The position numbers and the translations under genes are program-made. DNA of 64,000 nt from an uncultured bacterium (lineage in GTDB: Bacteria; Verrucomicrobiota; Kiritimatiellia; RFP12; UBA1067). The stretch is taken from NCBI GenBank assembly GCA_902799955.1, contig CADCCQ010000009.1:67066-131065 (forward strand). Direction: 5' to 3'. This document shows positions 53,690 through 59,059 of the stretch, in pieces. How positions within the stretch are numbered: the first letter of the stretch is position 1; each line of letters opens with the position of its first letter. The notes below the pieces were generated by a model, which was not told where the DNA came from, ran no database searches, and was given only the letters and a program-made list of their open reading frames with translations.

Positions 53690-53700
53690 CGCTGTCTGAT

Positions 53701-53857
53701 ATTCTACCAAAACAAAACATGGTTGTCTACACCTCCGTGAATCCAGCATCTTCGTCAGGACGTGCATTCACAGGTATTCCACCAAAACAAAACATGGTTG
53801 TCTACACCTCCGTGAATCCAGCATCTTCGTCAGGACGTGCATTCACAGGTATTCCAC
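53701..53857. repeat. 75-bp tandem repeat, 2.1 copies, with inverted arms
   Basis: 53701-53775 and 53776-53850 are identical apart from one base at the start, and a third copy is cut off after 7 bases. Each unit holds ACCT-CC-GTGAAT ... ATTCAC-AGGT (53731-53742 with 53766-53775), plus an inner CGTC-AG-GACG. A large hairpin can therefore form. It lies between the divergent SDR and galM genes. The rest of the 284-base gap contains no gene. Confidence 0.9.
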
Positions 53858-53973
53858 TTCCCCTCCCCCCGTCTCCACAAGAGGAATGTCGCATTCATTT
53901 TTTGGTTTTGTTTTTCGCGGAAGTGTGCTACACTATTCTACAGCAGTCAACATCACGAAAGGAGACATCGAAT

Positions 53974-55137: not shown

Positions 55138-55161
55138 TCCCAAAGAGGAAGGGGGCCTGAC

Positions 55162-57051
55162 GTGAGGCTCAGAGTGCTGGGGCTGTCCGTGTGGGGCCAG
55201 TCCCATGCGCAGTCCATAGGAGTGCGCATCGAGGGCCTTCCGGCCGGGATCGCCGTCGACGGCGCCCGGCTGCAGGCCTTCATGGACCGCCGCGCGCCCG
55301 GGCGCGACGCGCTTTCGACGGCGCGCCGCGAGCCGGACGTCCCGGAGTTCCGCTGCGGCGTCTCCGGCGGCTTCACCGACGGCGGCCCCGTCGAGGCGGT
55401 GATCCGCAACACCGACACGCGCAGCGGAGACTACGAGCGCACAGTCCCGCGCCCCGGCCACGCCGACTACCCGAATTGGGTTCGGACCGGACGCATTCCG
55501 CCAGGCGGCGGCGCGAACTCCGGCCGCATGACTGCCGCGATGTGCGTCGCCGGCGGGATCTGCCTCCAGGCGCTCGAAAGTCGCGGCATTCGCGTCTCCG
55601 CGCGCGTCGAGGGCGCCCCCGACGTCGCCACCGCAAAGGCCGCCGGCGATTCCGTCGGCGGAGTCGTCGCCTGCGAGGTGACGGGACTTCCTGTCGGACT
55701 CGGCGGGCCTATGTTCGACGGCATCGACGGCGCTATCGCCGCCGCGATGTTCGGCATCCCCGGAGTGAAGGGCGTCGAGTTCGGCAACGGCTTTGCCGCC
55801 GCGTCGCTCAGGGGCTCGAAGAACAACGACGCGTTCGCCGTCCGCGATGGGAAGGTCGTCACGCTCTCCAACCGCCATGGCGGAGTCCTTGGCGGAATGA
55901 CGAGCGGAATGCCGCTCGTCTTCAGGGTCGCGATGAAGCCGACCCCGTCAATCTACGTCCCCCAGAAGAGCGTCGACCTCGCGACGATGACGGAGACCGA
56001 ACTGACCGTCCGCGGACGCCACGACCCCTGTATCGCCTACCGCGCCGTGCCCGTCGTCGAGGGGCTAGCCGCGTTCGCCGTTCTCGACGCGATTCTCGCG
56101 GATGCCCCGGGCGCAGAGTACCGCCCGGTTCCGCTCGACGAGCTTCGCAACATCGTCGTCGACTCGAATGTCGCCGCGCTCTATCCCGAGATCGCCGGAA
56201 GGGCGATCATGGTCCTTCCTTCCGGCGAGGAGTCGAAGACCATCGAAACGGTCACGCGGATTTGGGACGCCTTTGCGAAGGCAGGCGTCGGGCGCCGCGA
56301 TTTCGTGACCGCCGTCGGCGGCGGCGTCACCGGAGACCTCGTCGGCTTCGCCGCCGCCACTTGGATGCGCGGCGTCGACTGGGTGAACGTCCCGACCACG
56401 CTCCTCTCGATGGTCGACGCGTCGTACGGTGGCAAGACCGCCTGCGACCTGCCGTCCGGCAAGAACATGGCGGGCGCGTTCCATCCGCCGCGTCGCGTTA
56501 TAATTGACGAACGATTTCTAACTACGCTTCCGCCGCGGCGCGTCGCCGACGGACGTGCAGAGATGATAAAGCACGAGGTGATCGGCGGCATACCGCGCCC
56601 CGACGACGTCGCGCGGCTCCCGTCGTCCGCGGAGATCGCGGCGAACCTCGCGGTCAAGGTCGGCGTCGTGCGCGCCGACCCGTTCGAGCGCACGGGCGAG
56701 CGGATGAAACTCAATGCCGGACACACCGTCGCGCATGCCGTCGAGAAGGCGACTAACTACGCGGTGTCGCACGGCGAGGCGGTCGCGATCGGCTGCGTCG
56801 AGGAGGCGCGCCTCGCCGAACGTCTCGGCCACGCAAAGGCCGGGTGGGCTGACGAGCTGGCGGCGAGGTTCGCGTCCGCCGGGCTTCCTGTCGCGCTGCC
56901 GGACGGCCTCACGTTCGATTCGCTCGCGCCGCTGATGGCCGGCGACAAGAAGCGCGAGGGCGCGTCCGTCGTTTTCGCCCTGCCGTGCGGATGGGGCGAC
57001 GTCAGGGCCGTGCGCGTGGATTTCGCGGGAAATGGCGCAGATGTCGGGTGA
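55162..57051 (+). CDS. Chorismate synthase-3-dehydroquinate synthase fusion
   Basis: 629 aa with a GTG start and GAGGAAGGGGG upstream. Residues 1-~315 match AroC of the GHFSGRLTAP-like type: SVWGQSHAQSIG, RPGHADYPNWVRTG, GGGANSGRMTAAMCVAGGI, GSKNND, RHGGVLGGMTSGMPLVFRV, GRHDPCIAYRAVPVVE. Residues ~325-629 match AroB: LPSGEESKTIETV, AVGGGVTGDLVGFAAATWMRG, VPTTLLSMVDASYGGKT, GRAEMIKHEV, LNAGHTVAHAVE and SHGEAVAIG, which carry the zinc Glu/His/His. AroB starts the shikimate pathway, AroC ends it. The AroB N-terminus is shortened by ~30-40 residues. It overlaps the next gene by up to 20 bases. I know no common fusion of this pair. Confidence 0.9.
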   Translation: MRLRVLGLSVWGQSHAQSIGVRIEGLPAGIAVDGARLQAFMDRRAPGRDALSTARREPDVPEFRCGVSGGFTDGGPVEAVIRNTDTRSGDYERTVPRPGHADYPNWVRTGRIPPGGGANSGRMTAAMCVAGGICLQALESRGIRVSARVEGAPDVATAKAAGDSVGGVVACEVTGLPVGLGGPMFDGIDGAIAAAMFGIPGVKGVEFGNGFAAASLRGSKNNDAFAVRDGKVVTLSNRHGGVLGGMTSGMPLVFRVAMKPTPSIYVPQKSVDLATMTETELTVRGRHDPCIAYRAVPVVEGLAAFAVLDAILADAPGAEYRPVPLDELRNIVVDSNVAALYPEIAGRAIMVLPSGEESKTIETVTRIWDAFAKAGVGRRDFVTAVGGGVTGDLVGFAAATWMRGVDWVNVPTTLLSMVDASYGGKTACDLPSGKNMAGAFHPPRRVIIDERFLTTLPPRRVADGRAEMIKHEVIGGIPRPDDVARLPSSAEIAANLAVKVGVVRADPFERTGERMKLNAGHTVAHAVEKATNYAVSHGEAVAIGCVEEARLAERLGHAKAGWADELAARFASAGLPVALPDGLTFDSLAPLMAGDKKREGASVVFALPCGWGDVRAVRVDFAGNGADVG

Positions 57052-59059
57052 TGGCTTTCTCCAGGGGCGGCGGATCCACTTCGCGGGCGTGGGGGGCGTC
57101 GGCATGGCCGCACTCGCTGTGCTTGCGAAGGCGTGCGGCGCGGAGGTGACGGGATGCGACATCTCCGCCACGTCCAGGACGCGCTGGCTGGAGTCGATGG
57201 GCGTCAAGGTGTCCATTGGGCACGACGCCTCGCATCTTCTGGGCGTCGACGAGCTTGTCGTCACGCCTGCCGTCTCGCCGGACAACCCGGAGCTGGCGTA
57301 CTGCGCTTCCGCCGAGGGACGGCGCATCCGCGTTCGCAGGCGCGGAGAGCTTCTCGCGGAAATGGTGTCGTCATGCAGCTCCATCGCCGTATGCGGCTCG
57401 CACGGCAAGACCACCACCGCGACGTTCACCGCGAGGCTTCTGCTCGCGCTTGGCGAGGACGTCAGCTGGGCGATTGGCGGCGAGACGGGCGACTTCCCCG
57501 TCGCCGGCGTCGCGAAGGGCGGGCTCTTCTCCGACGGCGCCGTCCTGGTCGTCGAGGCCGACGAGTCCGATGGCACGCTTGCGCTCTACCACCCGGACGT
57601 CCTCGTCGTCACGAACTGCGAATACGACCACCCCGACCACTTCAAGACTCCCTCCGACTATTTCGCGTGCTTCGACGCCGCGCGGCGTAACTCAGGCGAC
57701 GTCGTGGAAGCGGAGTCGCTGCCGCTCGACGGCTGGGATTCCCTTGGCTCGCTCCCTCTCCACAACCAGAGGAACGCGCGCGCCGCCGCGGAGGTCGCCC
57801 TGCGTCGCGGACACTCAAGGGAGTCAATCGAGAGGGCGCTCGCGTCGATAGTGGAAGAGCTTCCGGACAGGCGCTTCCAGACGATCGCGGCGAACACCCC
57901 CGCCGGGACGGTAGTGACGGACTACGCGCACCACCCCACGGAGATGAAGTGCGCCGTCGCTATGGCGCGCGATGTGTGCAGGGGACGCCTGCGCGTTCTC
58001 TTCCAGCCGCACAGGTACTCGCGCACAAAGGCGCTGATAAACGATTTCCCGGAAGCCCTGCGCGGCGTGGACGAAGTCGTGCTTTGCCCCACATACGCCG
58101 CGTTCGAGCGGCCTGTCGAGGGCGGGGACATCGCCGACTTGTACGCGGCGTGCCGCCGCGCCTGGAAGGGGACTCCCCGTCTGTTTCTTGCAAGAAGCTG
58201 CCGTGAGGCGTGGAGGCATGCGTATTTCGAGGGCAGGGAGGACGACGTAACGCTGCTCCTTGGCGCGGGCGACATCATCGGACTCGCGGATGACGTTGTC
58301 GCGGATTGTTCCGCCGCCGGTGCGCGTCCGGCCGGTCCAGGCACGGATCTTTCAGGATTTTCGTTCTTCAGGACTGGCGGGCGCAGTGTTGGCGGCGGCG
58401 TGCGTCATGTCGTTGGAATGGGCTCTAATCTGTGGATCAGCGACCTTACTACGGATGAAGAGTACACGAGGCTCGGCCATGGTGGCGCGGAGTCGCGCCG
58501 TCCCACGCCGAGTGGACGGGTCGTGTTCCCTGCCGGCGCGCCCGGCGCTGTCCTTGGCGTCCCGTGGATGGCGGGCGTCCCCGGTTCGGTCGGCGGATGG
58601 ATCGTGATGAACGCCGGGGCGTTTTCGCACTCCATCGGCGAGCTTGTCATGCGCGTCAAGGTCGACGGGCGCTGGCTCGCGCGCGGGGAATGCGGCTTCG
58701 GCTATCGTACCAGCGCAATAAAGGGCGTCGTGGAGGAAGTTGAGTTCGCATTCCCGGAGAGCTGGGACGTCGATGCCGCGACTTGCCTTGCGAAGCGCCC
58801 GCACTTCCCGCCGCGGTGCTGCGGGAGCGTGTTCAAGAATCCTCCGGGCGATTTTGCGGGACGCCTCCTAGAGGCAGTCGGGGCGAAGGGCCTCTCCGTC
58901 GGCGGGGCGTATGTGTGGGAAGGCCACGCCAATGTCATCGCAGCCCGCGACGGCGCGACTTCCAGCGACATACTCGCGCTTGCGCGCATAATGCGCGAGA
59001 GGGTGTTCCACCGCTACGGCGTGCGGCTTTCCGCCGAGATTCGGGGGCTTGATGTCTGA
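57032..59059 (+). CDS. MurC-MurB fusion: UDP-MurNAc-L-alanine ligase and UDP-MurNAc dehydrogenase
   Basis: 675 aa; ATG 57032 or 57041. MurC part (~1-440): FAGVGGVGMAALAVL, CGSHGKTTTATFTARL (ATP loop), VVEADESDGT, NCEYDHPDHF, HNQRNARAA, DYAHHPTEM, FQPHRYSRTK. MurB part (~445-675): FFRTGGRSVGGG, VGMGSNLWISDL, GVPWMAGVPGSVGGWIVMNAGA, GFGYRTSAIKG, CGSVFKNPPGDFAGRLLE (catalytic Ser) and AEIRGL (Glu). It lacks part of the usual N-terminal FAD region, and is ~70-100 residues shorter than free MurB. MurB feeds MurC in peptidoglycan synthesis. The start overlaps aroCB and the stop overlaps birA. Confidence 0.9.
   Translation: MAQMSGDGFLQGRRIHFAGVGGVGMAALAVLAKACGAEVTGCDISATSRTRWLESMGVKVSIGHDASHLLGVDELVVTPAVSPDNPELAYCASAEGRRIRVRRRGELLAEMVSSCSSIAVCGSHGKTTTATFTARLLLALGEDVSWAIGGETGDFPVAGVAKGGLFSDGAVLVVEADESDGTLALYHPDVLVVTNCEYDHPDHFKTPSDYFACFDAARRNSGDVVEAESLPLDGWDSLGSLPLHNQRNARAAAEVALRRGHSRESIERALASIVEELPDRRFQTIAANTPAGTVVTDYAHHPTEMKCAVAMARDVCRGRLRVLFQPHRYSRTKALINDFPEALRGVDEVVLCPTYAAFERPVEGGDIADLYAACRRAWKGTPRLFLARSCREAWRHAYFEGREDDVTLLLGAGDIIGLADDVVADCSAAGARPAGPGTDLSGFSFFRTGGRSVGGGVRHVVGMGSNLWISDLTTDEEYTRLGHGGAESRRPTPSGRVVFPAGAPGAVLGVPWMAGVPGSVGGWIVMNAGAFSHSIGELVMRVKVDGRWLARGECGFGYRTSAIKGVVEEVEFAFPESWDVDAATCLAKRPHFPPRCCGSVFKNPPGDFAGRLLEAVGAKGLSVGGAYVWEGHANVIAARDGATSSDILALARIMRERVFHRYGVRLSAEIRGLDV

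Follow-up and report, generated by a model that had tools for sequence, protein, structure and literature searches.

Chorismate synthase and 3-dehydroquinate synthase joined in one protein in a genus of gut Kiritimatiellae

We describe a gene that joins chorismate synthase (AroC) and 3-dehydroquinate synthase (AroB), in this domain order, in a single 629-aa protein (Pfam). It lies at positions 55162-57051 (forward strand) of the window, the whole stretch of 64,000 nucleotides analysed here. It is very likely, with a probability of about 0.87, that the product is an ordinary bifunctional shikimate enzyme with two independent active sites, which arose once by domain reassortment in one genus of gut Kiritimatiellae.

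At the functional level, the C-terminal AroB would convert DAHP to 3-dehydroquinate (step 2), and the N-terminal AroC would convert EPSP to chorismate (step 7). Both active sites would act independently, and the intermediates would diffuse freely. Gene fusions serve as evidence for enzyme contact or for a shared intermediate, and steps 2 and 7 share neither. Since these two steps have no common intermediate, direct channelling within the chain is unlikely, in line with the preliminary description of this DNA, which did not see it as the obvious reason for the fusion.

The fusion gene and its two halves

The frame runs from a GTG start codon at 55162 to a stop codon at 57049-57051 (629 codons plus stop) without internal stops. 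Reading the sequence directly, we found a purine-rich stretch resembling a ribosome-binding site upstream of the GTG (AGAGGAAGGGGG, 55144-55155, forward strand), and reading the linker by eye revealed no clear candidate for an internal start preceded by a ribosome-binding site. The protein matched the Pfam families Chorismate_synt (PF01264; E 1.9e-97, 326 bits against a cut-off of 27), DHQ_synthase (PF01761; E 1.9e-42, 144 bits against a gathering score of 24.2), and DHQS_C (PF24621; E 1.9e-26, 93.2 bits against a gathering score of 27.6). No Pfam match to SKI (shikimate kinase) was found in the chain, and the domains present are AroC and AroB only. The frame in the assembled genome (G000; 148 contigs, 92% complete) is identical to that of the window. 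Frame, Pfam matches, and assembled genome thus agree with the single AroC-AroB protein first proposed.

With a draft assembly of 148 contigs, an assembly error or frameshift at ~56100 that unites two genes has to be considered. The same in-frame junction, however, is repeated in 19 genomes with diverged sequence, including separately deposited records. We therefore excluded a mis-assembly at this position, and the chance that the fusion is an artefact is negligible.

The AroC domain (approximately residues 1-314; 55162-56103, forward strand) was delimited with PF01264, TIGR00033, and an alignment to the solved structures 7rca and 5z9a. In NCBIfam, it scored 294.5 bits for TIGR00033 (cut-off 212.2) and narrowly missed the stricter PRK05382 (314 vs. 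321). This half is compact, a feature that the preliminary description did not contain and that the present analysis adds: profile positions ~148-175 are unmatched, and from the GGG..SGR motif to GDSVGG the protein is ~40 residues shorter than the solved chorismate synthases. The stretch between these motifs has 53 residues in the fusion vs. ~62 in AroC-AroD-AroE, AroC-AroD, and stand-alone relatives; thus, most of the internal loss is old.

The SH of GQSHA, RPGHAD, and RGRHDPC align with both solved structures and are invariant among fusion members; from general knowledge, we take the histidines and the RHDP(C) motif to be catalytic. At the first AroC signature, GESHG, the window reads GQSHA, most other fusion members GESHA, and some GASHA. 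GESHG is a sequence signature of AroC and not a functional requirement. The AroC half is predicted to be a chorismate synthase that would convert EPSP to chorismate with FMN.

The AroB core (approximately residues 346-629; 56197-57048, forward strand) was delimited with PF01761, PF24621, and alignments to solved AroBs, and it keeps the NAD, Zn, and catalytic motifs. VDxSxGGKT, GKN, AExIKH, LNxGHT, SHGEAV, and DKK are intact. When aligned with 3okf, 6lk2, 3qbd, 1ujn, and 5eks, the GGKT lysine, the AExIK glutamate and lysine, the LNxGH histidine, the SHGE histidine, the DKK lysine, and the Zn ligands are present, and they are conserved in the fusion members. Judged by these alignments and those of AroC, both halves appear to retain their catalytic motifs, as had been noticed before, and the AroB half is predicted to convert DAHP to 3-dehydroquinate as a 3-dehydroquinate synthase.

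The N-terminus of AroB had been described as trimmed, and TIGR01357 was indeed matched only from profile position 52, with the first 51 positions absent. This truncation is probably the reason for a score below the NCBIfam equivalog cut-off (278 bits vs. 305). The AroK-AroB protein of one relative (G044) likewise misses this cut-off, with 287.9, and the distance from AroK to the PxGE motif is ~41 residues in the AroK-AroB proteins of the genus vs. ~81-88 in outgroup AroK-AroB proteins. Since the AroK-AroB proteins of the genus are already short at this place, the trimming predates AroC-AroB and occurred while AroB was joined to AroK. It was inherited from an AroK-AroB ancestor and not caused by the fusion to AroC, a point absent from the preliminary description.

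The junction (56104-56196, forward strand), recognized by identity and length variation across 20 sequences, comprises a variable linker (approximately residues 315-328) and the shortened N-terminal strand region of AroB (to approximately residue 345). The linker is short and varies in length, with a mean pairwise identity of 0.50 vs. 0.73 in the two domains.

An AlphaFold2 model built from 16 sequences reached a mean pLDDT of 77.3 and a pTM of 0.69; how its two domains are placed relative to each other is unreliable. An earlier model from 11 close relatives scored poorly (pLDDT 67.5), and the addition of five more distant sequences raised it to the final value. In Foldseek, one half of the model matched chorismate synthases and the other DHQ synthases (probability 1.00; highest TM-scores, on single-domain targets, ~0.75).

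Distribution and selection

The preliminary description had suggested looking for the same domain order in other genomes. A family search, with the count checked by mapping domains onto stop-to-stop frames, retrieved AroC-AroB as a single frame from 19 of the genus's 61 genomes, one copy being cut by a contig end. The rest of the family (115 genomes searched) contained none, and none were added by the rest of the order (162 genomes), by the phylum sample (388 genomes), or by the family containing G383 elsewhere in the phylum (29 genomes). The arrangement, already suspected not to be common in bacteria, is thus rare: one genus among the order and the phylum sample searched. The AroC-AroB form was not found in another class: G383 is of the AroC-AroD-AroE type, AroC and AroB lie in separate frames in G513, and they are separate in the remaining members of that family.

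An independent pattern-based scan of a GTDB-based contig collection yielded ten AroC-AroB loci, from close relatives only. Their records are all named Kiritimatiellae, Lentisphaerae, Verrucomicrobia, or uncultured bacterium, and several come from the gut of sheep, goat, yak, or cattle. For the named records, the host group is the ruminant-gut Kiritimatiellae.

Identity of the fusion members to the protein of the window is 66-77%. For the informative close pairs, Nei-Gojobori dN/dS was ~0.15-0.34 in both halves, and thus both are under purifying selection. Neither a mis-assembly nor a gene in decay would be expected to show this pattern. One bin (G102) carries two AroC-AroB copies; G102:C132 (L173) is near-identical to G050:C41 (L071), and the second copy is probably contamination.

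The rest of the pathway and the partner fusion

The AroC-AroB gene provides the sole AroC and the sole motif-intact AroB of the window's genome. A check for other aroB or aroC genes had been proposed: no second AroC was found, and the only extra AroB-like gene lacks key catalytic residues. This 399-aa paralog (G000:C1:9627-10262; L002:1246-2445, reverse strand) no longer has the lysine of GGKT or the histidine of LNxGH, as read from the sequence, and stays below the NCBIfam cut-offs. It could be a dead copy or a sugar-phosphate cyclase of another kind.

These genes bear on the idea that one half of the fusion is catalytically dead or moonlighting while the real enzyme is encoded elsewhere. The GQSHA signature, the compact AroC, and the second AroB-like gene would fit it. 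However, the genome holds no other AroC, the paralog misses the two residues and the cut-offs, the AroB motifs of the fusion are intact, and both halves are under purifying selection, all of which makes this idea very improbable.

The remaining steps were all found outside the AroC-AroB gene, and thus the aromatic pathway of this genome is complete. An AroK-AroA-AroE fusion of 710 aa, with its domains assigned by Pfam and NCBIfam, is located on another contig than AroC-AroB (G000:C40:3781-5913; L104:3781-5913, forward strand). A stand-alone type II dehydroquinase, AroQ, lies ~5 kb before the window (C9:61737-62147), DAHP synthase with an adjoining chorismate mutase is on C16, and TyrA is on C25. 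Two polypeptides therefore carry steps 2, 4, 5, 6, and 7. Best-hit annotation would assign a single step to AroC-AroB, and the aromatic pathway would wrongly be called broken in these gut bacteria.

AroK-AroA(-AroE) is present in 18 of the 19 AroC-AroB genomes and in two incomplete genomes where AroC-AroB was not recovered; within the order, only this genus has it. The same number, 18 of 19, have AroQ. Type I AroD had no match in the AroC-AroB genomes, nor did AroQ in the four AroC-AroD-AroE genomes tested. In six relatives (G099, G090, G100, G082, G064, and G062), the stop of AroC-AroB and the start of AroK-AroA(-AroE) overlap by 4 nt, and in G049 the two genes almost abut.

With their genes overlapping in several relatives, AroC-AroB and AroK-AroA(-AroE) would supply steps 2, 5, 6, and 7 (and 4) in a fixed ratio, and AroQ and DAHP synthase would stay separate. 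We infer that both activities are present and that the benefit lies in fixed dosage, co-folding, or complex assembly; co-expression, or the attachment of both pathway ends to a larger assembly, is a possible benefit as well.

A rival idea is a prokaryotic metabolon similar to the eukaryotic AROM protein. Known AroC enzymes are tetramers and known AroB enzymes dimers. Tied together by the fusion, the two would be expected to form a larger assembly, which would recruit AroK-AroA(-AroE) and hold in one particle the greater part of the route between DAHP and chorismate. Two polypeptides do hold nearly the whole pathway, and their genes overlap in relatives. Nevertheless, AroQ is unfused, and the two genes are on different contigs in the window's genome, so we regard such a metabolon as unlikely. 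Similarly doubtful is the idea that the genus has a bacterial equivalent of AROM in two chains, AroC included, in which AroC-AroB and AroK-AroA-AroE would share one particle, and the permutation of sister lineages (AroC-AroD-AroE, AroK-AroB, and AroA) would solve the same packing problem. The bifunctional enzyme with independent active sites remains our preferred reading.

Domain history and known systems

Two points were absent from the preliminary description: the partner of AroC-AroB is AroK-AroA-AroE, and AroC-AroB is one of several alternative fusions in the genus. We found four arrangements: (i) AroC-AroB with AroK-AroA or AroK-AroA-AroE; (ii) AroC-AroD-AroE with AroK-AroB and AroA, the set of most other genus members; (iii) AroC-AroD, separate AroE, AroK-AroB, and AroA; and (iv) separate AroB, AroA, and AroC with an AroE-AroK fusion. 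As an example of the second, G044 has an operon-like run of DAHP synthase, chorismate mutase-TyrA, AroC-AroD-AroE (805 aa), AroK-AroB (469 aa), and AroA. Shikimate domains have been re-cut and re-joined repeatedly within one genus.

In single-domain trees (IQ-TREE), AroC-AroB forms a single clade with both AroB (97/99) and AroC (98/95), and its neighbours and outgroups in the AroB tree are mostly AroK-AroB. As AroC-AroB is one clade beside or among AroK-AroB proteins, the move of AroB from AroK to AroC probably happened once. The AroK of AroK-AroA(-AroE) is also one clade (100/99), as is the AroE of AroK-AroA-AroE (100/99), which is placed with modest support among the AroE domains of AroC-AroD-AroE. 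From these trees, in which several forks are unresolved, the order of rearrangements would be as follows: AroB, earlier the C-terminal half of AroK-AroB, detached and became attached to the C-terminus of AroC, and AroK became linked to AroA and, in part of the lineages, to AroE as well.

Loss of AroD-AroE-AroK by simple deletion, starting from an operon of AroC-AroD-AroE and AroK-AroB, is insufficient as an explanation. Since AroK reappears on AroA and AroQ replaces AroD, reassortment is a better description than deletion.

Other fusions in the genus and beyond were observed along the way. AroC-AroD-AroE was found at L036:5053-7470 (forward strand) and in ~20 relatives, beside AroK-AroB, and also in G383, from another family of the phylum; the latter suggests that whole operons moved horizontally. 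An AroE-AroK fusion with separate aroB, aroA, and aroC occurs in L051, L052, L157, L159, L164, L166, L182, L192, and L193. Since AroE-AroK and a comparable set of genes are also present in a Subdoligranulum (Clostridia) record, L198, this arrangement of the genus may have been transferred from Bacillota.

Within the preferred reading of a bifunctional enzyme, the fusion itself could be neutral: a tolerated accident of translationally coupled genes without functional coupling, which persisted as a ratchet after loss of the intergenic stop. Overlaps of a few bases are also seen between other shikimate genes of the genus, the linker is variable, and the many combinations (AroC-AroB, AroK-AroA, AroK-AroA-AroE, AroC-AroD-AroE, AroC-AroD, AroK-AroB, and AroE-AroK) are expected if fusion is easy and the combination unimportant. 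However, AroC-AroB is kept across species whose proteins differ by ~25-35%, no return to separate genes was observed, and AroK-AroA(-AroE) accompanies it in 18 of 19 genomes. Both facts are still compatible with neutrality, to which we give somewhat less than even odds.

Among known systems, AROM of fungi and other eukaryotes is a pentafunctional AroB-AroA-AroK-AroD-AroE protein. Both systems place several shikimate enzymes on a chain, AroB included, and here a second protein likewise unites AroK, AroA, and AroE. On the other hand, AROM contains AroB but no AroC, as the preliminary description stated, whereas here AroC is N-terminal to AroB, the order AroK-AroA-AroE is on a separate chain, and dehydration falls to a third chain, the stand-alone type II AroQ. 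AROM has five domains on one chain, and the AroC-AroB protein lies outside this class.

Bifunctional AroK-AroB proteins are known in bacteria, with an example in Herbaspirillum (PMC7311316). In these AroK-AroB (or AroL-AroB) proteins (NCBIfam PRK14021, PRK13951), AroB is also the C-terminal half, and the AroB of the immediate relatives has this form and is equally trimmed, but the N-terminal partner is shikimate kinase instead of AroC. AroD-AroE proteins (NCBIfam PRK09310) are another shikimate fusion and are contained in the AroC-AroD-AroE of the genus, whereas the AroC-AroB genomes have no type I AroD match. In Streptomyces, Listeria, Collinsella, and Subdoligranulum records, aroC and aroB adjoin, a possible starting point of a fusion, although records listing both names annotate them as separate genes. 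One Subdoligranulum match in the plasmid collection was rejected as an AroC-AroB fusion: it consists of two overlapping genes in two frames, aroB followed by aroC.

AroC-AroB, AroK-AroA-AroE, and AroC-AroD-AroE had no matching NCBIfam model and no report in the literature searched, whose coverage was incomplete. For other phyla, absence rests on the contig-collection scan (close relatives only), the plasmid collection, NCBIfam, and the literature, with light sampling outside the phylum. AroC-AroB is thus most likely a new combination of a known kind, the multifunctional shikimate enzymes such as AROM, in the sense of not found elsewhere and not of proven absence.

With before and after states within one genus, these bacteria offer a prokaryotic comparison for the origin of AROM-type multienzymes. 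As a natural experiment, the genus also lends itself to asking whether pathway enzymes fuse for channelling, for dosage, for complex assembly, or by chance.

Finally, gene order around the fusion varies. TyrA is often directly upstream of the pair formed by AroC-AroB and AroK-AroA(-AroE) in relatives, while in the window's genome the upstream neighbour is an aldose epimerase, and the 3' end of AroC-AroB shares 20 nt with the start of a MurC-MurB-like gene that is no part of the enzyme. According to the frame list and the neighbourhood, this gene (57032-59059, forward strand) encodes MurC and, after it in the same frame, a shortened MurB. In the 5' part of the aldose epimerase frame (~53700-53860, forward strand), two tandem copies of the peptide PKQNMVVYTSVNPASSSGRAFTGIP are encoded, apparently by a short DNA repeat that precedes the true start of that gene.
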